Shown here one piece after another: positions 7,887 to 21,703 of a stretch of 21,703 bases of DNA (positions are counted from its first letter, which is position 1; the number at the start of each line of letters is the position of its first letter). A program made the position numbers and the translations under genes. The notes under the pieces are model-generated. The model was not told the origin of the DNA. It made no database searches and saw nothing but the letters and a program-made list of their open reading frames with translations. Source of the DNA: a virus; the IMG/VR virus record IMGVR_UViG_3300013089_000004, positions 1 to 21,703 of that record. One strand, written 5' to 3'.

Positions 7887-9806
7887 TTACCTCATCGATC
7901 TAAGATTGTATAATAACTCAATTTCGTGTACTTTAAACCATTGATCAGCAGTATTAGTGGCAAATTTGAACTGTATCGATTTACCTACTGCATTCACAAG
8001 TGTAACACGTACTTTTTTCTTTTGAAGGCTTCCACCCCAGGTGCTAGTACCCAAAACACTGGTACCCCACAAAGATCCACCACCATCTAAGTCTACTGTG
8101 GTAAGTGTGTCTCCTGTGTCCCTGAAGTCCATCTTATATGACAAATTCATATCCCAATCACCAGTACAGGAGACTGTGATAAACAATTGTCTAAATACTT
8201 TAGTGAAATCACGATGTTCTTCTATCCCACTGATAGAAGCTGTCCAATAATACGAGTCTATGGCAGAATCGTCATAGTTATACTCGTTAGTCATCTTGTA
8301 AATGAGTCCGTCATCATTTGCTGACCCAAAAAGAAGATCACCTTCATGAATGGTGAAGTTGTTAGCCTCTACCCCGTCCATGTAGCTCCATGCACCATTG
8401 TTCTTGTCCTGTGCACTTGCTCTTACATAATCATAGATGTATACCCGGTTATTTCCGGACGCTTGAGAGCCGTAAGGAGCAGCTAAGTAGATCTTATTCT
8501 CGAAGTTTATCGCTGCTGCCTTGTGTATGTATGAATTCTTGAATGCTAGTACGTCTGGCTCAATATCAAAGGTATGAGAGTCTACTGCGAACTTCCCACT
8601 AGAGCCTTGTGATGCACTTTCTGCAATATCTGTCCCGGCGAATGCATATCCACCTGACTTATTGAGAAAGAATAGCACATTGTTGAAGAAATCCATTGCT
8701 TTATCACTCTGAGTCCCATAAGCTGATGGAGACTTGGTCAAATACCAGTTACTCGAGTCAGCTGTGCCCGTAGAGTCTGCAACATAGAGTAACCATATCG
8801 ATCCTTGACCTCTTCCATCGTTCTTATGGATCACTATGGAGTTTCCGTAAGCAGTTATACCCGATATGGGGAAACCATCTCCATCACCGATATCAACAAA
8901 GTTAGTACTCTTCCAGGTCTCAGGCTCTAAGGCATCTGAGTAGTAGAGTCTCATTGGGTTTGCTAATTCACCGGCTGCATAGACTCTACCGCGGTACTCA
9001 ACCATGTATTTGCACTTCGGCATCGTGCCATTATCGGCCGGCATAAGTGTTACCAGGTTTGCATCAGCGTTATTGTCTACGTAAGATGTTTGGTTAGCTG
9101 TTAAAGCTGTTACACGGTAATATATCCCGCCAACAGTTGATGTGTTCCTGTACAGGTACTTAGAATCTACTCCAGCACTTGCGGGAGAGACTGGTATACC
9201 AGTAAGGGTGAGCTGCCCTGATGAAGCGGAGACGGCGGTAGGAGTGATCAGAGCATACTCACCCTCATTACCCGAGGCATTGATACCGGTTAGTGCATAA
9301 CGATAGGATCCAGTCAATACTCCTGCTCCAGTACTTGCAGCAGAGGCTTCACCTATAGTAGGTGCTGGGACTCCTATGGTAGTAAGTTCACCACCGTTGT
9401 ATTTATATGGATTCGCATACCCATCTGATAAATAGGCATAGTCATTTACTGTGACAATCTTAACATCTACACCAGCAGTATAGACATTAGTTGATCCTGT
9501 GACCTGTGAGAATACCCCACCCGATTCAGAGTAGAGGCTACGATCGCATACAGCTAGAAGTGTACGTTCACCACTATTTTTTACATAAGAGTGAAGTCCT
9601 TCAATAGCTGAGGAGGCTATACCAGTGGCATTTACCTTCTGGAATCCTTGGGTAGTAGCTACTGCACCGTAGTCATCGAACACAACATTCTGGAGATCCG
9701 GACTCTGATTAAGAGGCATTGACACATCGGTATACTTTGTGTTCAAACCGCCATCAAAGAGAGGTATCCTTATCTGTTGCTTATACGTTCTTGGCTGAAA
9801 TGCCAC
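7887..9806 (-). CDS. Large beta-rich tail hub / DNA-stabilisation-like protein (P22 gp10-like position), 639 aa
   Basis: The N-terminal block (residues 14-57: PLFDGGLNTK, PLNQSPDLQNVVFDDYGA, QGF) is typical of phage proteins that plug or cap the neck, where a 'gGl...d....l...g.l.dg.g.l..RkGf' pattern precedes a beta-propeller. The body is rich in Tyr, Gly and Asp turns with blade-like repeats such as VYAAGELANPMRLYYSD, IWLLYVADS and KIYLAAPYGS, consistent with a propeller. Residues 160-255 resemble an inserted fibronectin-like beta domain (SYRYALTGINASGNEG). The gene follows the adaptor, as P22 gene 10 follows gene 4. The start is GTG 9806, with GGGGG six bases upstream; this G-run SD recurs in the window. 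Structural role is likely; homology to gp10 itself is not proved. Confidence 0.72.
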   Translation of the reverse strand: MAFQPRTYKQQIRIPLFDGGLNTKYTDVSMPLNQSPDLQNVVFDDYGAVATTQGFQKVNATGIASSAIEGLHSYVKNSGERTLLAVCDRSLYSESGGVFSQVTGSTNVYTAGVDVKIVTVNDYAYLSDGYANPYKYNGGELTTIGVPAPTIGEASAASTGAGVLTGSYRYALTGINASGNEGEYALITPTAVSASSGQLTLTGIPVSPASAGVDSKYLYRNTSTVGGIYYRVTALTANQTSYVDNNADANLVTLMPADNGTMPKCKYMVEYRGRVYAAGELANPMRLYYSDALEPETWKSTNFVDIGDGDGFPISGITAYGNSIVIHKNDGRGQGSIWLLYVADSTGTADSSNWYLTKSPSAYGTQSDKAMDFFNNVLFFLNKSGGYAFAGTDIAESASQGSSGKFAVDSHTFDIEPDVLAFKNSYIHKAAAINFENKIYLAAPYGSQASGNNRVYIYDYVRASAQDKNNGAWSYMDGVEANNFTIHEGDLLFGSANDDGLIYKMTNEYNYDDSAIDSYYWTASISGIEEHRDFTKVFRQLFITVSCTGDWDMNLSYKMDFRDTGDTLTTVDLDGGGSLWGTSVLGTSTWGGSLQKKKVRVTLVNAVGKSIQFKFATNTADQWFKVHEIELLYNLRSMR

Positions 9807-9818
9807 GAGATACCCCCG

Positions 9819-9827
9819 ATTATATCA
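9819..9827 (-). promoter_or_regulatory. Candidate extended -10 promoter element before the gp10-like gene
   Basis: On the minus strand the last codons of the adaptor gene spell TGATATAAT, a perfect extended -10 (TGnTATAAT). A start about seven bases downstream would fall in the G-run that serves as SD, leaving only a very short leader. No good -35 box is seen 17 bases upstream, although extended -10 promoters can do without one. It may be chance. Confidence 0.3.
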
Positions 9828-10476
9828 TACCCAGCTCGGTCTCTGGGTACTTGTCTGAGTCCTTTACTACTAGAAGTGCATCTTTGAATTGACGTTGACT
9901 CCACAGTTGCTTTGCACTGAGTATGTTACCTGACCATAGTCCCTGATGGAACTTAGCTCTACCATCGTCCTGATCCTTAGCGTACATCCTTGACAAACAA
10001 AAGTCTGGGATGTACTTAGCAAAGAATGAGGGCACAGTAAAAGCAGACGATGCGGTAACTATCTGTGCTGGTTCTTGTATATAATGTAATGCTACTGTCT
10101 TAGCCTCTTGAGGTACCGGGAATAGGCCAATCTGAGACCCATACTGATAATAGCAGTAAGGATCACCCTTATCAAGATCACCACCGTATCCTCCACCATT
10201 GACGGAGTCTCTATCACGATAGTCTATCTTCTTAAGCTTGGTATTATTCCATTCTACTCTTTCAACATATAGCACATCAGCAGGAAGCGAATAGTACTCA
10301 GTATTTGTAACAGAAGAGATGCTCGTAGAGTCTCTGACCTCTGTACATACCACCTGATTAGCTATCTCTTGCTCTGCCTGCCACATGTAAGAGTAAATCT
10401 CGGCATCCGTATAGAATGCCGCTGTAGCCTCATAGACCTGAGCTCTAACTGTTGCCAGTATCTGCGCTGGAGTCAT
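9820..10476 (-). CDS. Head-tail adaptor protein (P22 gp4-like position), 218 aa
   Basis: The pattern of this protein fits phage head-tail adaptors. An N-terminal helix (MTPAQILATVRAQVYEA) is followed by YTDAEIYSYMWQAEQEIANQVV (residues 22-43, matching the common 'wtdaell.ylN.aq.ei' motif), a short beta stretch with EYYSLPADVLYVERVEW (60-76), then GLFPVPQEAKTVALHYI (117-133) and a helical C-terminus. Such proteins bind below the portal ring. Its place between small head proteins and the gp10-like gene agrees. It overlaps the upstream gene by 32 bases, which suggests coupled translation; GAAGGG lies about eight bases before ATG 10476. A link to the DUF6682 adaptor family is my impression and needs a profile search. 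Confidence 0.75.
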   Translation of the reverse strand: MTPAQILATVRAQVYEATAAFYTDAEIYSYMWQAEQEIANQVVCTEVRDSTSISSVTNTEYYSLPADVLYVERVEWNNTKLKKIDYRDRDSVNGGGYGGDLDKGDPYCYYQYGSQIGLFPVPQEAKTVALHYIQEPAQIVTASSAFTVPSFFAKYIPDFCLSRMYAKDQDDGRAKFHQGLWSGNILSAKQLWSQRQFKDALLVVKDSDKYPETELGMI

Positions 10477-10864
10477 TTCCTTCGCCCTTCTTGTCGAGTG
10501 ACCTCAAGTATGACATTAATCCTGCCTTACTTTTGAATTCCTTACCGTCCGGTGCTACATATACCTTACCAGTATCTCCTTCAGTTGTCTTTCCTCTTAG
10601 AATCTCAAGATGTGCATCAAGAGACGCCTTATCCTGAAATTCCATGCCGTCTAACTGGCACACATACTGCGCGTCTGAAGCGTCACCTATATGCTTCATA
10701 ACGAGCGTCACTTTACGGGTCCCGCAGTACTGACCTCTGATAGCTACTGCTTTGCGCCGGGGTACAGTGATACTTTCACCCGGTTCAATTGTGTAATGAT
10801 CACCGTCTACTACTTCGTTGTAAACTGCTGTGCCTGTATTAGTCAATGTTGACTTCTGAGCCAT
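10445..10864 (-). CDS. Small protein with duplicated degenerate zinc-finger-like unit, 139 aa
   Basis: The N-terminal half (residues 1-58) looks like a small beta domain (TIEPGESITVPRRKAVAI; RKVTLVMK). The C-terminal half holds two related units: YVCQLDGMEFQDKASLDAHL (67-86) and YVAPDGKEFKSKAGLMSYLR (102-121). Each reads like a C2H2 finger core (aromatic-Val-Cys, Gly-x-Glu-Phe, Lys-x-x-Leu, His-Leu), but most metal-binding Cys and His are lost: one Cys and one His remain in the first, none in the second. The Ser/Asp-rich end overlaps the next gene. Position suggests a head, neck or connector role, but no family is named. Start ATG 10864 has AGGGGG six bases upstream. Confidence 0.7.
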   Translation of the reverse strand: MAQKSTLTNTGTAVYNEVVDGDHYTIEPGESITVPRRKAVAIRGQYCGTRKVTLVMKHIGDASDAQYVCQLDGMEFQDKASLDAHLEILRGKTTEGDTGKVYVAPDGKEFKSKAGLMSYLRSLDKKGEGNDSSADTGNS

Positions 10865-10884
10865 ACCGAACCCCCTGAAAGTTA

Positions 10885-11241
10885 TTATTGGTAAACATGA
10901 ACATAGCAGGTCATGTCAGCAGAAGCTGCAGTACCTACCTCTAATTTTACATAATTCAGACCTTCTGCAGGTGGACAAGCTATCATGCCGTTACCGCCAC
11001 AAAGTCTGTTGTAGTCCACCCTGAAGTAGTCAGCGTAATTCGAAAATGCCGATGGTGCCGTTGGTACAGTAAAATGCATAAGTCTGTTGTACGTGACATC
11101 GTCCTGGGAACCTTGTACGTAAACTACGTATGAACCAGGTACCTGTAAGGCGATTTTACTCCACCCTTTGATAGATACTCCATCAGTGGATGTTGCAGCA
11201 CTCGAAAGTGTAAGTGCCAGTCTTTTGTGTATCCCAGCCAT
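10885..11241 (-). CDS. Small beta-rich head protein, possible decoration protein, 118 aa
   Basis: I chose ATG 11241, which has a strong GGGAGG six bases upstream and lies eleven bases after the upstream stop; an in-frame ATG at 11268 would overlap the upstream gene and lacks such a site. The protein is beta-rich with alternating hydrophobic residues: GWSKIALQVPGSYVVYVQGS (about 25-44), DDVTYNRLMHFTVP, YADYFRVDYN, LNYVKLEVGTAASADMTCYVHVY at the end. The pattern suggests a single jelly-roll or Ig-like domain, as in decoration or small lectin-like virion proteins. It follows another small structural gene downstream of the capsid gene. No signal peptide or membrane segment. Function is inferred from fold impression and position only. 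Confidence 0.7.
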   Translation of the reverse strand: MAGIHKRLALTLSSAATSTDGVSIKGWSKIALQVPGSYVVYVQGSQDDVTYNRLMHFTVPTAPSAFSNYADYFRVDYNRLCGGNGMIACPPAEGLNYVKLEVGTAASADMTCYVHVYQ

Positions 11242-11252
11242 TTGAGCCTCCC

Positions 11253-11531
11253 TTATGCCTGGCCCCATGCCATGACGGAAAAGGAATCTCCGGCGGTAGC
11301 TGACCCAATGAATAACATACCATCAATAGAGGTAGCAGCTGATCCAGTGTTATACGCTACAGAGAAAGTGTTCTCACCATCGATAAGAGCTTTCTTACTA
11401 ACAACAGCTCCATCAATCTTACCAATAGGTAATAGTACCGCACCAGAAGAGATCCCAGTGATAACTACATCACCTAATGCCATCGCTTTGTTACCGAAAA
11501 CGGTACGTTGCCCAGCAAATTCTACAGCCAT
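11253..11531 (-). CDS. Small Gly/Ala-rich head protein, candidate capsid decoration protein, 92 aa
   Basis: A 92-residue beta-rich protein with many Gly, Ala, Val and Ser (GDVVITGISSGAVLLPIGKI; LIDGENTFSVAYNTGSAA; DGMLFIGSATAGDSFSVMAWG). It has no charged helix, membrane span or catalytic motif. Its composition and place two genes after the major capsid protein fit a head decoration, stabilisation or fibre protein, but family membership is not established. The start is very well supported by AAGGAG followed by seven bases and ATG 11531. The spacing to the DUF115-like gene is 14 bases. Confidence 0.7.
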   Translation of the reverse strand: MAVEFAGQRTVFGNKAMALGDVVITGISSGAVLLPIGKIDGAVVSKKALIDGENTFSVAYNTGSAATSIDGMLFIGSATAGDSFSVMAWGQA

Positions 11532-11545
11532 CGTTAACTCCTTAC

Positions 11546-12676
11546 TTAAAATAAATATGTTGGTCTTTCATTTTCTTTAATCATCTGAGCTAGGACCTCA
11601 TGGTGCCGATACATGTCAATAAAGACCTTCAGCTCCATCTGCTCTATGCTTTGGATGTTCCCATCAGCATAGGCTCCTAGTATCCCACCTTCAGTACAGT
11701 TTATCATGTGCATGGGATGTTGTGCTTTCCCTCCCATAGACAGATGATCGAACCAGGCTTTAAAGTTATAGTATGACTGCCAGGTATAAACCCTATTGCC
11801 ATAAATATCAGTAGCCGGTACCAGCCCCATATACTGCTTATCATAAGGACTGTCAAAAGGGTGAAACTTCTGCATATAGTCGAAACTGAAATCAGCTCCT
11901 ACCATGGCGATCGGCATAGACCCCAAAATTGCTCTAGCATGATAAACGCATGCTCCAAGCGTATTTCCTCCCACATTGTAGAAGACATTAAGAGGCGTTA
12001 TAGCTCTTATCTTCTCAATGAAGTCGGGAGAGGGGGCTAATGTGTTATACCACAGAATCTTCCCTTGCCACTTTTCAATGAGCTCCGGATTTGACACTAA
12101 ACCTGCAACGAGAGTCTTATCCTTCGTCGATCCCCAGTAATACTTGGCACTTTTTCTCCCACCTTGAGAGACCTCTTCAATTGTAATCGGGCCTGCGTCA
12201 AGATTCACATAATAGTCAACTTTGATGCCCTTATCCTCAAAGAATCCATAGTTATGAAGGCACGATACTATCGGCATCCATTCTGGGAGCCTTAGGAGCT
12301 CATCAGCGTTCTTTTTAAGACTAGGTCCACTTCCAGCAACTATACAGGGTCTTCCTGCATTCTTGCCATGCTCAGACATTACTGAGTTACACACTACATC
12401 GTTCTTTTCGCAGTTCTCTTTAGTATGGTCCAACCACATCTGAGCGAAAGAGTTAGTAGTTACATTATCATTCTGACATGCTTGGGCCCATAATGCTTCT
12501 TTCGGGACAGGAGGACTCGGGATGTACTGCTGATATTGCAGTTTCATCTTCACAGTATCCTTAAGTCTTTCTTTAAGCTCATCGGCCTCTTTCTTCAACT
12601 CTTCAATCCTGAATAAGTAGTTATCTATCGTTAGTTGATCGGTCTCTACTTTATCAATCTTTGTATACTCTGACAC
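11546..12676 (-). CDS. DUF115 / MptE-like (motility accessory factor-type) putative glycosyltransferase
   Basis: The protein has the signature of the 6-hydroxymethylpterin pyrophosphokinase MptE-like / DUF115 family, which includes Maf proteins that attach nonulosonic acids to flagellin. Numbered from the chosen start (376 aa), it has a coiled-coil-like N-terminus (16-44), CIVAGSGPSLKKN (111-123), DYYVNLDA (154-161), NVGGNTLGACVYHAR (234-248), IAMVGADFSFD (256-266) and INCTEGGILGAY (325-336). The frame is open to GTG 12748 (400 aa), and ATG 12739 is also possible. I prefer GTG 12676: AGGGGG lies five bases upstream, as at other genes here, and the 75 bases above it are unusually GC-rich (46 of 75) and foldable. 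It sits between capsid and decoration-like genes, so a virion protein is a reasonable substrate. Catalysis and acceptor are inference. Confidence 0.75.
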   Translation of the reverse strand: MSEYTKIDKVETDQLTIDNYLFRIEELKKEADELKERLKDTVKMKLQYQQYIPSPPVPKEALWAQACQNDNVTTNSFAQMWLDHTKENCEKNDVVCNSVMSEHGKNAGRPCIVAGSGPSLKKNADELLRLPEWMPIVSCLHNYGFFEDKGIKVDYYVNLDAGPITIEEVSQGGRKSAKYYWGSTKDKTLVAGLVSNPELIEKWQGKILWYNTLAPSPDFIEKIRAITPLNVFYNVGGNTLGACVYHARAILGSMPIAMVGADFSFDYMQKFHPFDSPYDKQYMGLVPATDIYGNRVYTWQSYYNFKAWFDHLSMGGKAQHPMHMINCTEGGILGAYADGNIQSIEQMELKVFIDMYRHHEVLAQMIKENERPTYLF

Positions 12677-12681
12677 CACAT

Positions 12682-12738
12682 CCCCCTGAAGGATATAGAG
12701 TGGGGTCGAATGCCGCCTATCCAGGGGGACGGCGGACA
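12682..12738 (-). promoter_or_regulatory. Putative SD-sequestering hairpin/pseudoknot before the DUF115-like gene
   Basis: On the transcribed strand a hairpin can form between 12731-12738 (TGTCCGCC) and 12711-12717 (GGCGGCA), with a one-base bulge. Its 13-base loop (12718-12730) contains CCCCCTG. That heptamer is perfectly complementary to CAGGGGG at 12682-12688, the SD of the GTG at 12676. The loop could therefore pair with the SD as a pseudoknot, or an alternative long hairpin with the same seven pairs could form. Either would block initiation at 12676. The structure is deduced by eye. Confidence 0.4.
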
Positions 12739-12757
12739 TCCGATCCACTCTTTTTGT

Positions 12758-12835
12758 TTATAGGTACGCTTTAACTGCTGTAGACCCTGAAGCTACTGCA
12801 AGTAATACTCCAGCGTTTACTTATGACTTAAACAT
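12758..12835 (-). pseudogene. 26-codon reading frame interrupted by TAA, just after the capsid gene
   Basis: Five bases after the capsid stop, ATG 12835 opens a frame reading MFKS, a TAA stop (12821-12823), then VNAGVLLAVASGSTAVKAYL and a second TAA (12758-12760). The second part has the look of a real protein C-terminus: hydrophobic, Ala/Gly/Val/Ser-rich, ending in KAYL. No start codon follows the internal stop and no SD precedes the ATG. It may be the remnant of a small decoration gene or chance. The surrounding 163 bases down to GTG 12676 hold no other gene. Confidence 0.35.
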
Positions 12836-12839
12836 CAGC

Positions 12840-13757
12840 TTACACTAATGCGTTCATCTTACCCTGCATTCTGCAGTTAGAAGAGGTAAGAGCACCAGCG
12901 AAGTAGATCTTCGCGGAGCTTACATTCTGGTTAAGAGGCTTCTGGAACGGTTCGAACCTGAAGTTCTCTTTGGTGTGGATGTACAGCTTTAGGTAATCCT
13001 CATTCAGCATAAACATGTGACTCGCAGGACACTTGTTGTCAACAACAATAGGTACGCCGCGGAAAAGCAAGTTGTTAAAACCAGCATTTGCTGTATTGCT
13101 ATCCTGGAAGCGCTGTTGAGGCTGAAGAAGAGCGAAGTAGTCATCAAAAATGTCTTGGGTAGTCACGATGACAGAAGGCTTATCGTTACCGATAGTGCAA
13201 TCGCCATAGAGAGCCTGCATAGCGCTGAGAGAAAGAGCAGTAGTACTGGAATCTTCCTGTGAAGCCCACCAAGTGTAAGTAGAACGGTCAATACCACCAT
13301 ACGTGCCAGTGCTATCAATGGCAAGACGAAGACCTACAATAGCGTCTGCATCAGTACCAAGGTTATAAAGACCAGTACCAATTTTGTCGGCAAGAGTCTT
13401 CTCAGCAACCTGTACTTTAGACTTAACAAAGTTAACAGTGGCAAGTTTGCCAGAGTTCTTCAGGTCATCAAGACGGGTGATGGTGATGTTGGCATATGCC
13501 TGCTTCCACTCGAACTCTGCAGATGTGATCTGATCGTTAGCAGTGATATCGAGTGTGTCAGCTCCAGAATACCAGTCACTGGCTGAAGTTGTAGCATACA
13601 TAACAGGACACATGATGCGTTCTCCGCCATCTTGAGTCTGCATGAATTTCTTCCGTGCGCGTTGAAGCAACACGTTGGACGTAAAAATATTATCCACTAA
13701 TTTAGGGATAAAGTACTTCTCAGTAATTGCACTGATTTCACCATATGTGAGTGCCAT
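12840..13757 (-). CDS. Major capsid protein (HK97-fold type), 305 aa
   Basis: The protein follows the scaffold gene and has the features of a compact HK97-fold coat protein. The N-terminal arm contains ITEKYFIPKLVDNIFTSNVL (residues 11-30) and RARKKFMQTQDGGERIMCPV. A beta/spine-like part has YSGADTLDIT, AEFEWKQAYANITITRLDD and LKNSGKLATVNFVKSKV, with AEKTLADKIGTGLY as a long helix. A P/A-like domain follows, with DKPSVIVTTQDIFDDYFALLQ and LLFRGVPIVVDNKCP. The C-terminal tail ends GKMNALV. These blocks are familiar from coat proteins of podoviruses and other phages whose scaffold is a separate gene. There is no protease gene nearby, consistent with assembly without cleavage. Start ATG 13757 has AGAGGAG upstream, giving a strong initiation site as expected for the most abundant virion protein. 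Confidence 0.85.
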   Translation of the reverse strand: MALTYGEISAITEKYFIPKLVDNIFTSNVLLQRARKKFMQTQDGGERIMCPVMYATTSASDWYSGADTLDITANDQITSAEFEWKQAYANITITRLDDLKNSGKLATVNFVKSKVQVAEKTLADKIGTGLYNLGTDADAIVGLRLAIDSTGTYGGIDRSTYTWWASQEDSSTTALSLSAMQALYGDCTIGNDKPSVIVTTQDIFDDYFALLQPQQRFQDSNTANAGFNNLLFRGVPIVVDNKCPASHMFMLNEDYLKLYIHTKENFRFEPFQKPLNQNVSSAKIYFAGALTSSNCRMQGKMNALV

Positions 13758-13770
13758 GATTTTTCTCCTC

Positions 13771-14676
13771 TTACTTTAGGTTTCCTTCCATGACTTGGGC
13801 AGCTATCTGATCATAATTCATCTCCCGCACATTGGGCATTGGTCTTGCAGCTTGGGCCTGGGAACCCTTGGAAGTTACCACTCCTTGCTTATGCAGCTTT
13901 TGTTGCTGTTCAGCTTGAGCTTTTAAGGTATTCGCCTTTGTCCTGGTCTGTACTGTATCCCACATCATATCCCGATAGGCCTGTTCTAAGGTCTTAAAGT
14001 TATTCTGATGTGCATGATTCAATACTTCCCACTCAAAAGTTCTACCGGCTTCGTTGGGTATGTCCCATTGACTGTCCGGATACTTATCCTTGAGTCCTTT
14101 TATCTCACTCTGCAATTCCTTGTCCGCCTGACGATCATCATATGACCGTAGACGCTGCTCCAACTGATCGATCTTCTGAACATAAGGTTGGAACGCCTGT
14201 GTTGGATCTGGTTGACCGGGTTGTTGCTGTTGTCCCGTCATAGATTCATTGTACAAGCCCATGATCTTCTTTTGAAGGTCAGGATTCGCTTGGAATGCTT
14301 CTGCCAACTTCTGGTATTGCTCATACTTAGTAGACTGTTGGTTAAGCTGTTCTTCACGAGTTTTTAACTCCTGTGCACGCTGGCTATACAGGTATCCCTG
14401 CTGGGCCAAATTAACTAGGTGCTGCCGATCTCTTGGCACTACGTCTCTACCTCTGAATTTGAGTGTCCACGCTGCGGAATCAAAATCATCAGCTGAGGGT
14501 TGTGCTGCAGCAGGATCTAACTCCTGCTCGGCTCCTTCTTCTACTATAGGCTGCTCTTCAGTAGCCACTTCTTCTTGACTGCTTGTCTCTTCTGCTGCTT
14601 CGGGTGACTCGTTGATGTCCATACCACCATCAAGTGCTTCTACGGCGTCCGATTCTGCTTGGTCATATCCTGGCAT
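13771..14676 (-). CDS. Capsid scaffold protein, 301 aa
   Basis: The composition is that of a scaffold: a very acidic N-terminus (residues 7-65, packed with Glu/Asp), a recurring scaffold block (AWTLKFRGRDVVPRDRQHLV, 69-88, then NLAQQGYLYSQRAQELK), Gln-rich coiled coil (100-150), a second helical region (165-250) and a basic Lys/Gln-rich tail (251-275) followed by NVREMNYDQIAAQVMEG. Scaffolds direct coat assembly and then leave or are degraded. The gene lies immediately upstream of the capsid gene, 13 bases apart, the usual order. ATG 14676 has AAGGAG eight bases upstream. The 65-base gap before it contains no gene. Confidence 0.82.
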   Translation of the reverse strand: MPGYDQAESDAVEALDGGMDINESPEAAEETSSQEEVATEEQPIVEEGAEQELDPAAAQPSADDFDSAAWTLKFRGRDVVPRDRQHLVNLAQQGYLYSQRAQELKTREEQLNQQSTKYEQYQKLAEAFQANPDLQKKIMGLYNESMTGQQQQPGQPDPTQAFQPYVQKIDQLEQRLRSYDDRQADKELQSEIKGLKDKYPDSQWDIPNEAGRTFEWEVLNHAHQNNFKTLEQAYRDMMWDTVQTRTKANTLKAQAEQQQKLHKQGVVTSKGSQAQAARPMPNVREMNYDQIAAQVMEGNLK

Positions 14677-14741
14677 AATAATCTCTCCTTCTGGGACGCA
14701 ACTAAATGCGGTGCCCGTATCCCCCTGTTAAGGTATTTATA

Positions 14742-14966
14742 TTAAACGTCCGTGGGTGACTGCATTTTACCACCGCGTGGTACTTCACCGGTAGCATCCC
14801 ACGAAGGACTGGTTTTCGAGAAACTGTGACTTTCAGGCTGTGCACCAGCACTCTCAACTAACGGTCCACCTGTTTCAGTCTTAGGCTGATCAGGTACTAC
14901 ACTGTAGCTAGGGTTCTTGACATCACCTTCACTACCACCTTTGTAAAACGATACACCTTCACCCAT
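14742..14966 (-). CDS. Small polar protein of unknown function, 74 aa
   Basis: A 74-residue, Gly/Ser/Pro-rich protein (MGEGVSFYKGGSEGDVK at the start, PRGGKMQSPTDV at the end) with no hydrophobic core, no cysteine and no recognisable motif; probably disordered. An excellent SD (AGGAGG, then four bases, then ATG) supports real translation. It sits ten bases after the preceding gene and between portal and scaffold. Many phages carry small unassigned genes in this interval, some of which are internal head or portal-associated proteins. Nothing more can be said from sequence. Confidence 0.65.
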   Translation of the reverse strand: MGEGVSFYKGGSEGDVKNPSYSVVPDQPKTETGGPLVESAGAQPESHSFSKTSPSWDATGEVPRGGKMQSPTDV

Positions 14967-14976
14967 ACTGTCCTCC

Positions 14977-15510
14977 TTAGAACAAAACTCTGGTTTGATT
15001 CTTCTGTGATTTCATAGGTTTCTTAGCAATCATAGGTTCCGGAGGAGCCTCTAACGCATTGAAAGCAGGTTTAATGGCCCCAGCATCCATGGATGGCATA
15101 GGAGTTTCAGCTGCACTTGACTCGGGCCCCATTGGAGCGGGAGGTGCACCAGCGGGAGCTCCCATAGGAGATGCAGGTGCTTCCAGTGCCGGTTCCCCGC
15201 CTAGTCCTGCTGGAGCCATAGCATTAGGATCCATACTACTAGGTGCTCCCCCTTCAGATAACATAGACTCTACGAACCCCTTTAGATGCTGCATAAGTAA
15301 GTCAGCCTTAGGGTCTCCCTGCTTCGCAGCAGCGGAAGTGTATAGAGTTAATGTTCTTAGAGCCTGCATGACCGGGTTGTCTTCACCCTCCATACTGGCG
15401 GCATTGGTATCTGTCATCTCAGGCATTTGATCCATACTCGGATAAGGCTGTGGGCCCTGTTCCATTGGTGCCGGAGCTGGCATTCCGCCAGCAGGTTTTA
15501 TTTGCATCAT
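14977..15510 (-). CDS. Pro/Ala/Met-rich low-complexity protein, 177 aa
   Basis: Residues 1-40 and 85-160 are dominated by Pro, Ala, Met and Gly (GGMPAPAP; PAGAPPAPMGP). Between them lies one probable amphipathic helix pair, NPVMQALRTLTLYTSAAAKQ near 45-64 and ADLLMQHLKGFVESMLSEGG. The C-terminus is basic (IAKKPMKSQKNQTRVLF). The start overlaps the upstream stop as ATGATGA, and GAGGACAC precedes it. Similar Pro/Met/Ala-rich proteins with a short helical core occur next to portals in several phages, but I know no function. It could be an internal head protein or an accessory to the portal or scaffold. Confidence 0.65.
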   Translation of the reverse strand: MMQIKPAGGMPAPAPMEQGPQPYPSMDQMPEMTDTNAASMEGEDNPVMQALRTLTLYTSAAAKQGDPKADLLMQHLKGFVESMLSEGGAPSSMDPNAMAPAGLGGEPALEAPASPMGAPAGAPPAPMGPESSAAETPMPSMDAGAIKPAFNALEAPPEPMIAKKPMKSQKNQTRVLF

Positions 15511-15746
15511 TGTGTCCTCATCTTTCGTTCACGTGCTCCTTGGATTCTACCCTGCTCGGAGACTGCGATTGCTTTTGCTTGTTTAGGATTGGTGACTATG
15601 TTGCCAGCCCCACTCTTTAAATTACCTGTCTTGAATTCACCCATCACTGATCCAAATTTATTCTGTGGTGACATCTGGTTCTCCACTGCCTGTGGCTGCT
15701 GTGAGTACTTATCAGCTTCAGGGGTCTGTTGTATGACTGATGCCAT
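15507..15746 (-). CDS. DUF6496-like small protein, 79 aa
   Basis: Residues 30-66 contain the pattern FGSVMGEFKTGNLKSG, then a Gly-rich turn and NPKQAKAIAVSEQ. This agrees with the small domain I know as DUF6496 ('vMhEFk.G.L.Sg.gkkV..rkQAiAIAlSea'), found in short bacterial and phage proteins. No molecular function is established for it. The first 29 residues are Gln/Pro-rich and disordered; the C-terminus is basic. ATG 15746 shares one base with the portal stop (TAATG), so it is probably translated by reinitiation from the portal gene and made in proportion to it. It could bind the portal or a nucleic acid; this is inference. Confidence 0.72.
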   Translation of the reverse strand: MASVIQQTPEADKYSQQPQAVENQMSPQNKFGSVMGEFKTGNLKSGAGNIVTNPKQAKAIAVSEQGRIQGARERKMRTQ

Positions 15747-17608
15747 TACATGCCCCCCACTCCACCCATAGGTGCTGCTGGCGGTGCCTGTTGGGCTGCT
15801 GCCTGATCAGCTTCCTGTTTACGTCTTAATACTTCTTCCTTACGAGGCCACTCTAATACAGTCAAAAGTTCCTCGGCATCTATTACCTGATCCTGAAAGA
15901 GATTCCTGGCTAACTGACCACGTTTCTCTTTCATGAATGGTAAAGATGTACCAGCTTGTACACTTATATCAAACATCCCCTTAGAGGTTCCGTCCGGAGA
16001 CTGCCACTCAGCAGGATAGTATGTTTTAGTTTCTTCATCAAACTCATAGTCTCGGTAAGTATACCCGAATCCGTCTTCCTTCTCTTCTACAAAGAACTCC
16101 AGGTACTGAGGATATTCCGTGTCTCCGGATATCTTTAGCATCCTTGGTGTAGAATAATACTGCATCATTCTGCTTATAACCAAGTATCCCATCTTAGTCA
16201 TGGAGGTCTGCAGGTTACGCTCTTTTAATCTGATACGAGTCTGAGCTGCATCCTGTAAGCTATTGATTGCTTCCGCTGCTGTGACTCCTGCTGGCTTACG
16301 GCCCTGAGTTACATCATGCACCCCTGACTGTGTATCGGCCAATTGCCGGAACAGGCCATACATCTCAAACATCTGAGGAGGCATAGATGGTGCAGGTTCC
16401 CTGGTTACCATGCTCCCTCTATTCTTAGGGATGATAGCTCCAACCTGGTTAGTAAGTGTCCGGGGATCTACTCCCGAATCATTGTCCACGATCCACACTG
16501 GATTAGTCATCATGTTCATCCAGTCAACTAACGTGGCCATATTCTTATTGATAAGCTTCTGAGTCTCTATTAGAGGCTCTACCTCACCTTCACCCCAGAA
16601 CTTTCTTGGGACTAGGGTATCAACGAAGCGAGTAAAAGGCTTCTTTCCATCCTTGTACGGGTTAGCTTTAGTCTGTAGTACTAAGCGTCTATCCGGTAGT
16701 ACAGTTATTACTTTGCCTGTAGGATACTTCCTCTTTTGAGTCTTTTCCTTAGAGCCATCATCATTCTCAAGCTCATACTCTTCCATAGAGAAATCATCTA
16801 ACCAGCATTCAAGTACCATGACCTCTTTATCATCATTACCTGAGCCTTCTGGGTTCTGCATATCCCCTGAGTCTATTGAACTCTTACGATCAGTAGGACT
16901 TACCAGTAGTACTTCACCATTATAGGCTTCTTCTTTAGGCTGCTTAGAGTCTTCGCCTCTGTCCTGGAATGTACCTGTGATGTCCTCAGCTTTATCCGGG
17001 AACATCCTCTTCAGTTCACCCACTGACATGTATAGTCTTTGGATGACCCATGCACATTTCTTATCGAAGTCTTCAGCATCCTGAGGTAAGTAGATATTAC
17101 GGGGATCAACCACCATGCATGTGATGTCACCTAGACCTTCTTCAGCTTCTGAGTCCCAACAAGTCTTAAGGATAGCTGCATCATATATCAAACTGTCAAA
17201 GATCACGTCTACGATAGTGTGCTGCATACTGGTTCTCTCCCACCAAACTTGAACAGCTTTGGATAGGATATCAGCGAACTTATAATCAGTAGGATCCCGA
17301 GGCTCTACGTCAAAACCTGGGGATGCATCGGTCATGATCGGGAGTATAGTCTGTACTGTAGCTCGTATGATGTTGATATTGGGACTAGCCTTGTAAGAAG
17401 GACGCTTCACTTCCCACTGATTTCCTTTATAAAAGCTCCAGTACTTATCCCAACTGCCATCTACAGATTTACGTGCGGCCTTACCTTTCTCAAGGAGGGC
17501 CATGACCATCTTATAATCCTTTTTACTGGTATCATCCTGCTTAGGAGCAGGTTTACCATTAGGATTGTTCACTTCATTAGACTGCGCATTTATATCTAAA
17601 TAAGCCAT
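15746..17608 (-). CDS. Portal protein, 620 aa
   Basis: Size, position after the terminase and motifs identify the portal, the dodecameric ring through which DNA enters and leaves the capsid. Visible blocks are the N-terminal helix with SWDKYWSFYKGNQW (residues 51-64), PNINIIRATVQTILPIMTDA (76-95), a wing region with VVDPRNIYLP, the stretch TLVPRKFWGEGEVEPLI, ETQKLINKNMATLVDWMNMM, and a long helix with GVTAAEAINSLQDAAQTRIR. This is the arrangement of podovirus-type portals. The Glu-rich segment with VEEKEDGFGYTYRDYEFD lies near 540-557. The tail is Gln/Ala/Pro-rich and ends GGVGGM. The start ATG overlaps the previous stop (TAATG). Confidence 0.88.
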   Translation of the reverse strand: MAYLDINAQSNEVNNPNGKPAPKQDDTSKKDYKMVMALLEKGKAARKSVDGSWDKYWSFYKGNQWEVKRPSYKASPNINIIRATVQTILPIMTDASPGFDVEPRDPTDYKFADILSKAVQVWWERTSMQHTIVDVIFDSLIYDAAILKTCWDSEAEEGLGDITCMVVDPRNIYLPQDAEDFDKKCAWVIQRLYMSVGELKRMFPDKAEDITGTFQDRGEDSKQPKEEAYNGEVLLVSPTDRKSSIDSGDMQNPEGSGNDDKEVMVLECWLDDFSMEEYELENDDGSKEKTQKRKYPTGKVITVLPDRRLVLQTKANPYKDGKKPFTRFVDTLVPRKFWGEGEVEPLIETQKLINKNMATLVDWMNMMTNPVWIVDNDSGVDPRTLTNQVGAIIPKNRGSMVTREPAPSMPPQMFEMYGLFRQLADTQSGVHDVTQGRKPAGVTAAEAINSLQDAAQTRIRLKERNLQTSMTKMGYLVISRMMQYYSTPRMLKISGDTEYPQYLEFFVEEKEDGFGYTYRDYEFDEETKTYYPAEWQSPDGTSKGMFDISVQAGTSLPFMKEKRGQLARNLFQDQVIDAEELLTVLEWPRKEEVLRRKQEADQAAAQQAPPAAPMGGVGGM

Positions 17609-17925
17609 TAAATGTCCTCTAGCTTACGTTTGATCTCCCGAGGGATATCATCATATGATTGTTTCTTCGGTGCTAGCTTACGGCCATATTCCCGATCGTT
17701 ACCGATGGGTACCATCTCTGACCCATCATTGGCAGCCATGTACTTCTTATTGGCCTCACTGAAATCTCTTTTACTACCCAAGGGCACTGATACCATGGGT
17801 ACCGTGTATACTCTTTGCAGTGTAAGGTTGCAGTCTTCACAGACTTCTTCCCGGGCACAGTCCTTAGAGGCTTTGACTATCTCGTAGTCTCTACCGCACT
17901 GGATGCATGAGTATGGGTATATCAT
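17608..17925 (-). CDS. FmdB-type zinc ribbon protein, 105 aa
   Basis: I chose ATG 17925, which overlaps the upstream stop as ATGA, with GAAGG about ten bases upstream; the frame also extends to a TTG at 17934. The N-terminus is a compact zinc ribbon: Y-P-Y-x-C7-x-x-C10-G, then C29-x-x-C32, with an extra Cys at 23, followed by LQRVYTVP. This is the FmdB/regulatory zinc-ribbon pattern. The C-terminal 60 residues are charged and probably helical (REYGRKLAPKK, IPREIKRKLEDI). Such genes recur between terminase and portal in phages with no assigned role; a structural zinc site for protein or DNA contact during packaging is possible. The gene runs straight into the portal start. Confidence 0.75.
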   Translation of the reverse strand: MIYPYSCIQCGRDYEIVKASKDCAREEVCEDCNLTLQRVYTVPMVSVPLGSKRDFSEANKKYMAANDGSEMVPIGNDREYGRKLAPKKQSYDDIPREIKRKLEDI

Positions 17926-18167
17926 CTTACACAACCCTTCTCCATGTACCTTATGACCATGTCTAACTTTTGGTCTACTCTTATCTCAAGCCTCTTGATC
18001 TGATCTTTATTCTCAAGTGTACGCTCTTCAACTCGTGCCACTGTGGTAGAGGCTACAGCCGCTACGGTAAGGGCTGCAAGTATTGTACCTGCCATTGTTA
18101 GCGCGAACCATCTCCAAGGCACGAATATCCTGCCACAAGTTTCTATCTTATCATGTTCTTCGGCCAT
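17922..18167 (-). CDS. Small single-span membrane protein with coiled-coil tail, 81 aa
   Basis: Residues 19-42 form one strong hydrophobic segment (FALTMAGTILAALTVAAVAS), followed by a charged heptad-like helix from 45 to 76 (RVEERTLENKDQIKRLEIRV). One Cys precedes the membrane segment and one lies near the end. This topology (short N-terminus, one span, coiled coil) is seen in holin-like, spanin-like and assorted phage accessory proteins. Its place between the large terminase and portal genes is unusual for a lysis gene. ATG 18167 has GAGG five bases upstream, and the gene overlaps the zinc-ribbon gene by four bases. Role uncertain. Confidence 0.65.
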   Translation of the reverse strand: MAEEHDKIETCGRIFVPWRWFALTMAGTILAALTVAAVASTTVARVEERTLENKDQIKRLEIRVDQKLDMVIRYMEKGCVR

Positions 18168-18182
18168 ATTTACCTCTGCGTG

Positions 18183-19565
18183 CTATAAGTTGTACCAGTC
18201 TACCGATTCCCTCTGTGCTAATATCGTATTGACCTGGGTATTAATGTGAACCTTTTTACGCTCAAGAGCTTGTTCACTGTATACCCCAAGTACTCCATAT
18301 CGGCATTCATCTGCTGTGTCATCACCGTCCATCTTCAGTGTTATGTCCCTATTGTTAGGATCAGTGATTACTGTCTGCATACCTTCAAGGAATGTGCTAT
18401 TGTATCCATCCCAGTAAAACATCGTAGGCATGCCATCAACTTCATTCATCACCTGTCTTAGTAAGCTGCACCCATTCTTTTTGTCATTGTTGGCCTTCTG
18501 GAAGATGGTGCGTGCTCCACCTTTCTGGAATCGGTCTATGTACTCATCAATGATAGCCCGTGAAAACTGTTCATTTACCTTAGACTTAGTCCACATGGAG
18601 GGATCAGCGAAGATCTTTACGGGCATCTGCCCGTATGAGCCTGTGAAGCTGGCTAACCGTTGATATATCTCATCTGCATGAGTTTCTGCTGTGCCTCCGT
18701 CATTCAGATAACTGAATAAGCGGTACATATTGCCATTTGGTGCTGAGTACCATAGTCCGAAAGAAGTGGAATGGGTAGTACCGTGGTCGAGACTACCGTA
18801 GAGCCTCTCCATACATTCTGACTCTTCAATGTGAAATGGTTTCACTAGGCTCAAAGGGGATATATTATAAAATTGTCCCTCAAACACAGTAAAGTCCCCA
18901 TGTAACATGGCAGACCTCATTGGTTCTGGTAGAGCCTCTAGTCTTCTGATGTACTCCGGGTCATTCTCCATCAAGGATGGATTATCATACACTAGAGCCT
19001 TCAGAAATGCAAAGTGCTGTGGATCCTCACCTACTTCCATCTGCTTATCGATGAACATCCTCTTTAACCACATGTGACCTACGCCACCTGGGTTAAATGT
19101 CATTAACATGCGAGGTTTGATCTCTGATGTAGTACGAAGGCAGGCTCTAAGGTCCTGGAAGATCTTCTTACGATGGAACTGTGCCTCATCCAGGATGATC
19201 GTATCATACTCACCACCCTGAAACTTTATAAGATCCTTCTCACCTTCACAGTATCCTAATTCAATGATGCTCCCATTCGGGAATACCAGTTGGTGTCGTC
19301 TCTCGATGTACTTACATACTCCAATGTTCACATAATCACTGATGAATCGGTCGATATGGTTACGCTGTAGTTCAGGAAAGGTCTTCCTGACTAGAAGGTG
19401 CTTAGACTTGGGGTATTTCAAAGAACGTGCTATCAAGTAAATTCGTGCTAGGTGGGATTTCCCACCACCTCTAGCTCCGCCGTATCCTAGTATCTCGGTC
19501 TTAGCTAAAAGTTTTAGAGCCTCACCCTGTTTCGGATGCAGCTCTACGTTAAGCTCTAATGCCAC
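18183..19565 (-). CDS. terL: Terminase large subunit (DNA packaging ATPase/nuclease), 460 aa
   Basis: The motor that pumps DNA into the prohead and cuts it. The ATPase domain shows Walker A GGARGGGKS (residues 29-37, Lys36), Walker B TIILDEAQF (122-130, Asp126-Glu127) and the coupling motif TFNPGG (156-161). The RNase H-like nuclease domain shows its acidic residues in LDHGTT (Asp260), FADPS (Asp321) and DDTADECRYG (around 415-423). The length fits complete TerL proteins, so it appears intact. The start is GTG 19565; AGGGGGG lies three to four bases upstream, and no better start exists. It follows TerS by 14 bases. Confidence 0.95.
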   Translation of the reverse strand: MALELNVELHPKQGEALKLLAKTEILGYGGARGGGKSHLARIYLIARSLKYPKSKHLLVRKTFPELQRNHIDRFISDYVNIGVCKYIERRHQLVFPNGSIIELGYCEGEKDLIKFQGGEYDTIILDEAQFHRKKIFQDLRACLRTTSEIKPRMLMTFNPGGVGHMWLKRMFIDKQMEVGEDPQHFAFLKALVYDNPSLMENDPEYIRRLEALPEPMRSAMLHGDFTVFEGQFYNISPLSLVKPFHIEESECMERLYGSLDHGTTHSTSFGLWYSAPNGNMYRLFSYLNDGGTAETHADEIYQRLASFTGSYGQMPVKIFADPSMWTKSKVNEQFSRAIIDEYIDRFQKGGARTIFQKANNDKKNGCSLLRQVMNEVDGMPTMFYWDGYNSTFLEGMQTVITDPNNRDITLKMDGDDTADECRYGVLGVYSEQALERKKVHINTQVNTILAQRESVDWYNL

Positions 19566-19579
19566 TTGCCCCCCTGGGC

Positions 19580-19960
19580 TTATACTTCAATATCACCAGA
19601 TATCTTGATTGTCATGGTGATGTCACCTGTATGTTCCTGGATTATGGTCTCATTTTGTCCCATAACGCTCTTTAACCAGTAGATCGACCCAGTGCATCTG
19701 CCATCAAACAGCCTTTTTGCGTGTTTATCGGCGATTTGACTCCTTGCGCCCCTTATAATGCCGGAAAAGGGGCCTTTACCATCTTTCTCTGACATCCACT
19801 CTGTCAAGGTATCTCTATCAATACCCATGTGAACTGCAAGACCAAAAAGTGTTGGTCGGTCTCCATCTTTTACGAAATAGCTATCAACTAACTCCTGACA
19901 TTTCTTAACAGTCAGCTTTCTTGGTCGGCCTTTAACGTGAGTCTTAGACGTTCTAGGCAT
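19580..19960 (-). CDS. terS: Terminase small subunit, 126 aa
   Basis: Small, basic DNA-recognition subunit placed directly before TerL. The N-terminal GRPRKLT (11-17) and a helix-turn-helix (LFGLAVHMGIDRDTLTEWM, residues 38-56) are followed by a second helical part with ARSQIADKHAKRLFDGRCTG (73-92) and SIYWLKSVMG, the pattern common to small terminases of the gp3/DNA-packaging type. The end (EHTGDITMTIKISGDIEV) is a beta segment that often contacts the large subunit. ATG 19960 has GAGG seven bases upstream. Confidence 0.85.
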   Translation of the reverse strand: MPRTSKTHVKGRPRKLTVKKCQELVDSYFVKDGDRPTLFGLAVHMGIDRDTLTEWMSEKDGKGPFSGIIRGARSQIADKHAKRLFDGRCTGSIYWLKSVMGQNETIIQEHTGDITMTIKISGDIEV

Positions 19961-19964
19961 ATTG

Positions 19965-20144
19965 TTACCTCTTGATGATGGCGGTATCAGTTATCAGTCT
20001 TAGTCCAGTATTCAATAAGACTATGATGACTACAGCTACCTTAGGGTTTATCACTGATCCACCGGCTAGCTCTTGAATTCCAAGTGCTATAGCAGATAGG
20101 ACATTTACCCAGATTGTTTTACTTTTATACCACTTCTTAGTCAC
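19965..20144 (-). CDS. Small membrane protein, candidate holin, 59 aa
   Basis: I chose GTG 20144, which has AGGA seven bases upstream; the frame is open to a TTG at 20198 but no SD supports it. The protein begins MTKKWYKSKTIWVN and has two hydrophobic segments, about residues 11-25 (TIWVNVLSAIALGIQ) and 33-48 (NPKVAVVIIVLLNTGL), followed by a short polar end (RLITDTAIIKR). The 'K.WYKSKT.W.N...' start and 'P......I...N.gLR..T' end are familiar from short phage membrane proteins usually annotated as holin-like. Holins set lysis timing by making holes in the inner membrane. No endolysin gene is visible in the window, so the assignment stays tentative. Confidence 0.6.
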   Translation of the reverse strand: MTKKWYKSKTIWVNVLSAIALGIQELAGGSVINPKVAVVIIVLLNTGLRLITDTAIIKR

Positions 20145-20228
20145 GTATAGATCCTGTCGAAGATGCTTCTTTTCGTACACAGGTACATAGTATACCAATA
20201 TACCAGGGTATTTCAGGATTCTACATTA

Positions 20229-20579
20229 TTATTTTGTATTATTTTTGATGAGTTCTTGCTTTGTAAGTATTCCGTGCTTCACTTTGTCATATGCTCCCCG
20301 AACTCCTGAGCTTATAAGATCCATTTGGGTATGGTTCATCATGAAGATTTCTTCCTTGTCGGGGTACTGCCTTGAGTAGCCACATCCCGATAAGAAGATG
20401 GCTCCCTCCATTAGTTCATGGTGCAAGTAGTCTAGGAAAGTCTCTATGTTATATTTAGCGTTGATGTTCACTTTCTTTTCATATATGGAACATTCTCCGC
20501 CTAGTAGGTCTCCCTTTGATATGACCCTATTGCATGTCCATGTCTGTCCGAACCAAAAGAACTCAGCTTGTTTTCTCAT
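20229..20579 (-). CDS. Zincin-like small protein with HExxE motif, 116 aa
   Basis: The central helix reads FLDYLHHELMEGAI (residues 48-61), containing His54-Glu55-x-x-Glu58, followed by NHTQMDLIS at 82-90. Short phage proteins with 'LLHEilEAi ... H..is.l' have this layout and are usually treated as putative metallopeptidases related to the zincin fold; the third ligand is Glu rather than the usual His. The N-terminus is beta-rich (EFFWFGQTWTCNRVI; GGECSIYEKKVNINAK). Whether it cleaves peptide bonds is unknown. ATG 20579 overlaps the sigma-like gene by 17 bases, with AAGGG upstream, so it belongs to the same operon. It might act in lysis, host takeover or virion maturation; I cannot choose. 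Confidence 0.6.
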   Translation of the reverse strand: MRKQAEFFWFGQTWTCNRVISKGDLLGGECSIYEKKVNINAKYNIETFLDYLHHELMEGAIFLSGCGYSRQYPDKEEIFMMNHTQMDLISSGVRGAYDKVKHGILTKQELIKNNTK

Positions 20580-21072
20580 TGAATAGGGCCCTTATCTTCT
20601 TGCGGATGCTTTGACGTATATGGCACTCTGACATGAGTGATATCTCCATTACCTCACAGATCTCTCTGCCTTTGAGTCCAGATTCCCTGAGGTCCAACAC
20701 TCTCAGTTCTTTCTCAGTAAGTTGTGCCTTGACCTTTTTTAAACTGAGTTCGCCAAGTAAGGCGTCTGTCCAGTCAGGGGTGACTTTGTGGGTCTCTACG
20801 AAAGAGTCATAATTTTTGAGGTCTATCTGTGAGCGTTTACCGTAGATGCTCTTAAGCTTTCGTTTGATCACCGAGAACATATAAACCTGGAATAACCCCT
20901 CTGAAGGCTTATACCTACCGAGGGCGTTATATCTCAGTATGTGTAGGACTACCTCACTTACCAGGTCTTCGAGTTGGTCCGGATCATGTATGTGGGTGAT
21001 CCAGTGTATGATCATTTCTAACTCTTCCCTATTTTCCTTATAGAATTTGGTTATATCGGTTGTTTGATTCAT
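20563..21072 (-). CDS. Sigma-70-like factor (second of a pair), 169 aa
   Basis: ATG 21072 overlaps the upstream stop as ATGA; the frame extends to a TTG at 21123, which would overlap the upstream gene by 55 bases and is less likely. Residues 30-76 resemble sigma region 2: DPDQLEDLVSEVVLHILRY (the acidic 'aedl.qev...' helix), then FQVYMFSVIKRKLKS in the place of the 2.3-2.4 helix. Residues 115-163 resemble region 4: LTEKELRVLDLRESGLKGREI (helix before and within the helix-turn-helix) and a basic recognition helix, RQSIRKKIRAL. The layout is that of small ECF-type factors, though the match is weak. It likely directs host RNA polymerase to phage late promoters, judging from its place at the head of the late operon. 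Confidence 0.65.
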   Translation of the reverse strand: MNQTTDITKFYKENREELEMIIHWITHIHDPDQLEDLVSEVVLHILRYNALGRYKPSEGLFQVYMFSVIKRKLKSIYGKRSQIDLKNYDSFVETHKVTPDWTDALLGELSLKKVKAQLTEKELRVLDLRESGLKGREICEVMEISLMSECHIRQSIRKKIRALFNEKTS

Positions 21073-21581
21073 CCTTTGTAATACCTCTTGAATTTCTTTC
21101 GGATACTTTTCATGAGTGCCCAAGCATGCCCACGATTTAATCCTATAAGCTTTTCGGCCTCTCCTTGAGTACTACCAGCTAGTAGTTGATCCCATAATGC
21201 GAGTTCTAAGCCCCCTAGGAGCCCTCTGAATCTTTCGAGGTCTAGTTTTAGGTTGACGTTCATTTCGTGGCTTGGCTGTACCTCTATGTAGCTCTCATCG
21301 AATTCTGTGTGTTTATTCCCGTAAGCATTACCTTTCCTGTTTCTTTTTTTATAGATGTTCGATATATAGAAATCCATGGTCCGAGTAAGATAGCATGATG
21401 GGTTCCTCAAAGGATCAATATTCTCACAAACCTGCAGCCTTATAACATTACATACCCAGCTATTGAATTCTTCAGTCTTATGATCATCAGGTAAGTTTCC
21501 TTTTACCTTCCATAGCCATATCTTGAGAAGATCCATATAATTCTCTTTGATAGTCTTTATTGTATTTGATGAGATGTTCAT
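21069..21581 (-). CDS. Sigma-70-like factor (first of a pair), 170 aa
   Basis: A divergent sigma-like protein. Residues 15-82 can be read as region 2 (LLKIWLWKVKGNL; EEFNSWVCNVIRLQVCENID; YLTRTMDFYISNIYKKRNR), and residues 118-165 as region 4 with a helix-turn-helix (LGGLELALWDQLLAGSTQGE, then EKLIGLNRGHAWALMKSIRK). Both proteins of the pair end with the same short basic stretch (SIRKK), and their domain order is alike, so they may be old duplicates. The start at ATG 21581 has only a poor SD (GGGG too close); ATG at 21536 is a possible alternative. Confidence in the sigma assignment is moderate. Confidence 0.55.
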   Translation of the reverse strand: MNISSNTIKTIKENYMDLLKIWLWKVKGNLPDDHKTEEFNSWVCNVIRLQVCENIDPLRNPSCYLTRTMDFYISNIYKKRNRKGNAYGNKHTEFDESYIEVQPSHEMNVNLKLDLERFRGLLGGLELALWDQLLAGSTQGEAEKLIGLNRGHAWALMKSIRKKFKRYYKG

Positions 21582-21703
21582 ACCCCAATATACTCTAAAA
21601 GATGAAGTTTTTACCGGGGGCTCAGCAAATAGTTACCCTTCCCCATGTAAGAGTATTCACTGAGTACCTTTAACTATGACCTCTGTCCTCCGATGCTTTT
21701 GTG
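21582..21703 (-). other. Leader of the operon; no gene supported
   Basis: All three minus-strand frames entering from the window edge meet a stop within 50 bases (21674, 21670, 21658), so at most a few C-terminal residues of an upstream gene are present and its frame cannot be chosen. No convincing -35/-10 pair, operator or terminator was found in the rest. Confidence 0.5.

Follow-up and report, generated by a model that had tools for sequence, protein, structure and literature searches.

A phage sigma-factor-like gene and a putative diverged paralogue overlap at the start of a run of structural genes in an IMG/VR virus record

Genes 33 and 34 of phage SPO1 serve as a late sigma unit. Gene 33 (111740-112045) is annotated as "sigma factor accessory" and gene 34 (112042-112635) as "sigma factor". 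Phages phiEco32 and 7-11 are podophages. As described in excerpts of PMC8948821, each has a single sigma factor, phiEco32 gp36 and 7-11 gp47, through which the host's RNA polymerase is recruited to promoters of middle and late genes, or of late genes, and phiEco32 also makes gp79, a small polypeptide with a dual action, inhibitory on sigma-70 and stimulatory on the phage sigma. An excerpted account of T4 has gp33 and gp55 taking the place of sigma-70 in late gene transcription. Adjacent sigma genes of the SigF/SigG-like type occur in phage Bcp1 (bcp25,26; excerpts of PMC2716549) and in phage Eldridge (g168/g169), where the two have differing transcriptional profiles (excerpts of PMC9429907). 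In the SigO-RsoA system, finally, two proteins form one promoter-recognition unit to which SigO contributes domain 4 and RsoA domain 2 (excerpts of PMC10028694).

The window analyzed here is the whole 21,703-base virus record IMGVR_UViG_3300013089_000004. All 25 of its selected genes lie on the minus strand, from the gene that we call P0002 down to position 459, and the run comprises P0002, its neighbor P0001, both terminase subunits, portal, capsid and tail genes (Table 1). A sequence-only reading had proposed a translationally coupled pair of sigma-like genes at the start of the late operon, ahead of the terminase. The two open reading frames, their strand and lengths and the ATGA overlap are as it described them. 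The pair does lie upstream of the terminase but is not adjacent to it; the intervening genes encode a 116-aa product with no matches in Pfam, PHROGs or NCBIfam and a 77-aa protein that weakly matches holin-like families (phrog_34682, E 0.19; PF04531, E 0.057). That the run headed by the pair is a late operon is plausible from its gene contents, although only 122 nt of the record remain upstream of P0002, so the position of the pair at the operon's start is likewise no firmer than plausible.

Table 1. Positions in the window of the P0002-P0001 pair, of segments within it and of neighboring features
Feature	Position	Strand	Remarks
Candidate leader/promoter region	21582-21703	-	122 nt upstream of P0002, to the record end
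P0002	21069-21581	-	170 aa; upstream gene of the pair; putative diverged paralogue of P0001
P0002 residues 136-165, aligned with P0001 region 4	21087-21176	-	NF003257, E 0.05
SIRKK of P0002, residues 159-163	21093-21107	-	
ATGA overlap, P0002 stop and P0001 start	21069-21072	-	
P0001	20563-21072	-	169 aa; downstream gene of the pair; probable ECF-like sigma-70 family protein
P0001 sigma-70 region 2-like segment, residues 28-77	20842-20991	-	PF04542, E 0.0016, 18.7 bits, cut-off 24
P0001 region 4-like helix-turn-helix, residues 113-146	20635-20736	-	PF08281, E 0.03, below cut-off
SIRKK of P0001, residues 155-159	20596-20610	-	
116-aa gene after P0001	20229-20579	-	17-nt overlap with P0001
77-aa protein before terminase small subunit	19965-20198	-	weakly holin-like
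Terminase small subunit	19580-19960	-	phrog_606, 3.3e-8
Terminase large subunit	18183-19565	-	phrog_979, 6.5e-42

Residues 9-161 of P0001 match the sigma70-ECF model TIGR02937 over model positions 5-162 of 165 with an E value of 2.4e-10, at a score of 40.3 bits that falls 2.6 bits under the cut-off of 42.9. Residues 4-167 match phrog_1740 (sigma factor; E 1.8e-7, 31.1 bits), and the two segments in Table 1 place region 2 and region 4 signals together in a protein of 169 aa, which has no room for regions 1.1 and 3. As a yardstick, the annotated sigma factor SPO1 gp34 scores 34.7 bits with TIGR02937 and 15.3 with phrog_1740, both below P0001. With a profile made from 17 ECF sigmas of at most 176 aa, taken from 30 sequences fetched from five bacterial genomes, P0001 ranks 2nd of 26,303 ORFs and is equaled by none of 2000 shuffles; the hhalign probability against the ECF alignment is 87%, and the best BLOSUM45 local score with any of the 17 is 105. 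For want of relatives to align, structures were modeled from single sequences only. The P0001 model has a mean pLDDT of 55.4, is best, though only fairly, predicted at the C-terminus, and gives zero Foldseek matches at E<=0.001. Its residues 103-169 reach a Z of up to 9.6 with sigma region 4 and of 9.1 with the response regulator DesR, values around 9 being common for helical models, and this C-terminus resembles sigma region 4 and the response-regulator helix-turn-helix alike. Judged from its sequence, P0001 is very probably a phage sigma factor and is credible as a minimal one of the ECF type that narrowly misses the curated cut-off.

The sequence-only reading had seen parts resembling regions 2 and 4 in both proteins. 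This is confirmed for P0001, with its Pfam, PHROGs and TIGR02937 signals, but not for P0002, which no sigma model recognizes; the profile comparison with sigma-70 that had been suggested as a check divides the two in the same way. P0002 has no sigma model match in Pfam. Its only PHROGs match is to phrog_1740 at E 0.065 (residues 47-169 to profile positions 90-217), colinear with that of P0001, and its one NCBIfam match is a weak one, to a model named "hypothetical protein" (NF003257). The segment concerned may be a helix-turn-helix, as its alignment with P0001 suggests. With the 17-sequence ECF profile, 203 of 2000 shuffled versions of P0002 do at least as well as P0002 itself; the hhalign probability with the ECF alignment is 0.7%, and P0001 and P0002 combined in a joint profile give 33%, down from the value for P0001 alone. 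The best score of P0002 with an individual ECF sigma is 73 (L277), barely over the decoy maximum of 69, while the other 16 give 48 or less, and the earlier description of the pair as two sigma factors is not supported for P0002. The silence of the ECF profile is in itself weak evidence, since the same profile omits SPO1 gp34 from its top 40, but the curated libraries agree with it in leaving P0002 unrecognized as a sigma. The single-sequence model of P0002 has a mean pLDDT of 44.

Direct comparison of the two proteins gives a colinear alignment over the full length (P0001 residues 1-164 with P0002 residues 1-168) with a BLOSUM45 local score of 111. By this measure P0002 ranks 1st of 1,760 candidates against P0001, and the pair comes first in both directions; the 1,759 decoys, ORFs of 120-220 aa translated in six frames and trimmed to begin at the first M, in many cases not genes, have a mean score of 37.5 and peak at 71 in one direction and 69 in the other, and reversing the partner gives 45. 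The highest of 5000 shuffles reaches 84, for a Gumbel P of about 7e-6. The N-terminal halves score 79 with each other, matched by none of 2000 shuffles, and the C-terminal halves 50, matched by 29 of 2000; crossed halves score 29 and 41, matched by 1449 and 100 of 2000. P0002 thus appears to retain more likeness to P0001 on its region 2 side than on its region 4 side. Other statistics are weaker: BLASTP between the two gives E 0.030, phmmer gives E 12 among 27,396 ORFs, and the BLOSUM62 local score exceeds the decoy maximum by a small margin (56 versus 53), though in global BLOSUM62 alignment the pair is still first (43 versus 1 or 6). The SIRKK near both ends, to which the sequence-only reading had pointed, is present; the chance of any 5-mer being common to both proteins is ~0.03, and ~0.002 within the last 30 residues, and we regard the motif as part of the pair alignment and by itself as weak evidence. 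The proposal of a duplication, by contrast, is well supported by the full-length match, and the alignments and profiles together suggest an origin by tandem duplication in which P0002 would be the copy further removed from sigma factors.

The ATG at 21072 is preferred as the start of P0001 because it fits both the ATGA overlap and the profile matches, although a longer form from an in-frame TTG at 21123 is possible. An AAGAGG ending 11 nt before this ATG could be the ribosome site. Only one other same-strand ORF of at least 20 aa touches the 122 nt upstream of P0002; it encodes 33 aa, starts at 21588 and lies nearly all inside the start of P0002. No minus-strand promoter-like sites were listed in this upstream region, and in positions 9700-21703 sigma-70 type sites are at chance level, with 20 found versus 22.6 expected. 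The longest words shared within four pairs of upstream or gap regions, including the gap between the capsid gene and 11546-12748 and the one upstream of 13771-14676, are likewise at chance level, matched by 21 to 200 of 200 shuffles. The repeated promoter motif that had been suggested as a check did not emerge: neither the site scan of 9700-21703 nor the shared-word comparison found one tied to P0001 or P0002.

No relatives of P0001 or P0002 were confirmed in viral_contigs, none were found by tblastn against phages except for one P0001 match at E 4, and a P0001 query of genome_contigs returned none; these single-protein scans are sensitive to close relatives only. The neighborhoods of other genes of the run were a second source, comprising 80 of 576 confirmed terminase relatives and 80 of 586 capsid relatives, each among the matches listed, plus 68 capsid loci in bacterial genomes. 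Identity of the capsid relatives is up to 54% in IMG/VR, among the matches listed, and 37% or less for the 68 bacterial loci, 35 of which have "Alphaproteobacteria" in their titles. Across 181 sequences, terminase and capsid loci among them but not the 68 bacterial ones, no P0001 or P0002 match appeared at E<=1 apart from the record's own entries (L001/L092). With filters off, 280 sequences gave no significant match to either protein outside the record itself; the next-best matches were ECF sigma loci for P0001 (E 0.29, 0.44 and 0.93) and an ORF at E 2.6 for P0002. The sigma profile phrog_1740 was found in 6 of 50 whole records (44 of the 80 listed terminase loci and six named phages), most strongly in L093 (5.5e-9, profile positions 161-227 only), and in none of 50 whole records that represent 49 of the 80 listed capsid loci and Mx9. 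L010, the closest relative by portal (626 bits; IMG/VR, among the matches listed), shows no match to P0001 or P0002 in a stretch that includes 6 kb upstream of its terminase and no match to phrog_1740 in its 27.7-kb record, and conservation of the pair in the phage group is therefore unsupported. The region upstream of the L010 terminase holds a replication-initiation-like gene as well as an ORF whose zinc-ribbon matches are weak. So far, no record other than this one is known to carry the pair, and among the matches listed from open-licence papers no description of the pair, or of a duplicated sigma gene ahead of a terminase, stood out.

Several other genes of the window and of related phages were noted alongside. 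A small FmdB-like zinc-ribbon protein (17608-17934) adjoins the portal gene and has matches in L010, L102, L110 and L089 with E values no higher than 0.0007. An MptE-like protein (11546-12748; PF01973, E 1.3e-17) lies between the genes for capsid and head completion. The MptE-like domain is also found in Maf-type flagellin glycosylation proteins, and a sugar-related role would be our guess. Upstream of the terminase, L110 (3626-4552) and L010 (1445-2095) carry putative N-acetylneuraminate synthase (NeuB-like) ORFs, so judged by eye; taken with the MptE-like gene of the window, they may point to a nonulosonic-acid theme among these phages. A 796-aa terminase-like ORF in L116 (672-3062) has an insertion that is intein-like by eye (ending ...VVTHNT). 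At the far end of the run, a collagen-repeat protein (1197-2177) is followed by a concanavalin-like lectin-domain protein (459-1187), and the two probably belong to a tail fibre or serve in receptor binding; the latter also has a Pfam receptor-binding match, which is taken to reflect the lectin fold in common.

Set against the described systems, the locus most resembles SPO1 33/34, where two small neighboring transcription genes also share an ATGA overlap, the less sigma-like gene also comes first, and gp34, like P0001, matches TIGR02937 below threshold. The resemblance does not extend to the proteins. SPO1 gp33, of 101 aa, shows no likeness (scores of 31 with P0002 and 37 with P0001), gp34 gives 46 against P0001 and 55 against P0002, where the best decoys reach 71 and 69, and P0001 and P0002, unlike gp33 and gp34, are about equal in length and alike throughout. 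Bcp1 and Eldridge share with this record the presence of neighboring sigma genes within one phage, but as described in the excerpts the two genes of those phages are both similar to sporulation sigmas and were investigated for host effects, whereas here an ECF-like sigma and an unrecognizable paralogue head a structural gene run. The phiEco32 and 7-11 systems, compared by their excerpted descriptions, differ in having one sigma each. SigO-RsoA resembles the pair in that two proteins would act in one promoter-recognition unit, but a split of that type, with one protein supplying region 2 and the other region 4, is not what we find, as P0001 carries both signals. The earlier view that two coupled sigma genes would be unusual was thus too strong, given the SPO1 overlap and the tandem or neighboring genes in excerpts of PMC2716549 and PMC9429907. 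Since coupled and neighboring sigma genes have phage counterparts, we regard the pair as an interesting variant and not as a new kind of system, its distinctive feature, so far as the sequences tell, being a pair alike over the full length of which one member is recognizable as a sigma and the other is not.

Several explanations of P0002 deserve weighing. Were both proteins working sigmas with different promoter preferences and different gene sets, their full-length alignment would fit, as would the score of P0002 with L277 just over the decoy maximum and the differing profiles of the adjacent Eldridge genes in the PMC9429907 excerpts; P0002, however, lacks a profile-detectable region 2, its scores with the other 16 ECF sigmas are low, and coupled translation would give both proteins the same time of expression, and we regard this explanation as unlikely, if with an appreciable chance of being right. 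We know of no sigma-derived antagonist, and a role for P0002 as a pseudo-sigma, bound to core or to P0001 and acting as a sigma-derived anti-sigma to restrain P0001 or the host sigma, is quite unlikely, even though a protein that lost the family signature while keeping its length and colinear likeness would suit such a part. The dual action of phiEco32 gp79 offers a precedent in function, weakened by the description of gp79 as a small polypeptide (excerpts of PMC8948821).

A more deflationary account makes P0002 a small helical protein that resembles P0001 by chance, with P0001 as the only sigma. The weak BLASTP, phmmer and BLOSUM62 statistics and the lack of a significant sigma profile match for P0002 are consistent with it, but the colinear BLOSUM45 match beats every one of the ORF decoys and shuffles, and we think it very unlikely. 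Regulation of host genes, such as those for dormancy or stress, in place of phage late genes is suggested by the sigma loci of phages Bcp1 and Wip4, which alter host sporulation and biofilm traits (excerpts of PMC2716549); against this, the pair heads a structural gene run and the best models for P0001 are ECF and not of the SigF/SigG type of those loci, which leaves such a role highly improbable.

The explanation that we favor, and consider reasonably probable as a whole, is that of a phage sigma factor made together with a co-translated, diverged paralogue. P0001, a minimal ECF-like sigma with regions 2 and 4 only, would attach to the core RNA polymerase of the host and turn it toward phage promoters of middle or late genes; its gene is the second in the run for packaging, capsid and tail proteins. 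P0002 would be the product of an old tandem duplication of the P0001 gene, both of its halves having diverged beyond recognition by sigma profiles, and would be made from the same message through coupled translation. Its likeliest part is that of an accessory subunit or a second specificity factor that works with P0001 in one transcription switch. A heteromeric phage sigma that arose by whole-gene duplication and needs both proteins in one holoenzyme is, on our assessment, quite unlikely; in it P0001 might, for instance, engage the core and the -10 element and P0002 add a second core or promoter contact, with coupled translation fixing the ratio of the two.

If both proteins act simply as sigmas, the locus adds one more phage sigma pair. 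A heteromer, if true, would represent a route to a two-subunit sigma unlike the split type of SigO-RsoA or the unlike-partner type of SPO1 gp33-gp34. Should P0002 be an obligate partner or an antagonist of P0001, the locus would show how duplication can convert a complete sigma factor into a dedicated cofactor, and the pair would constitute a compact two-protein switch for phage transcription.
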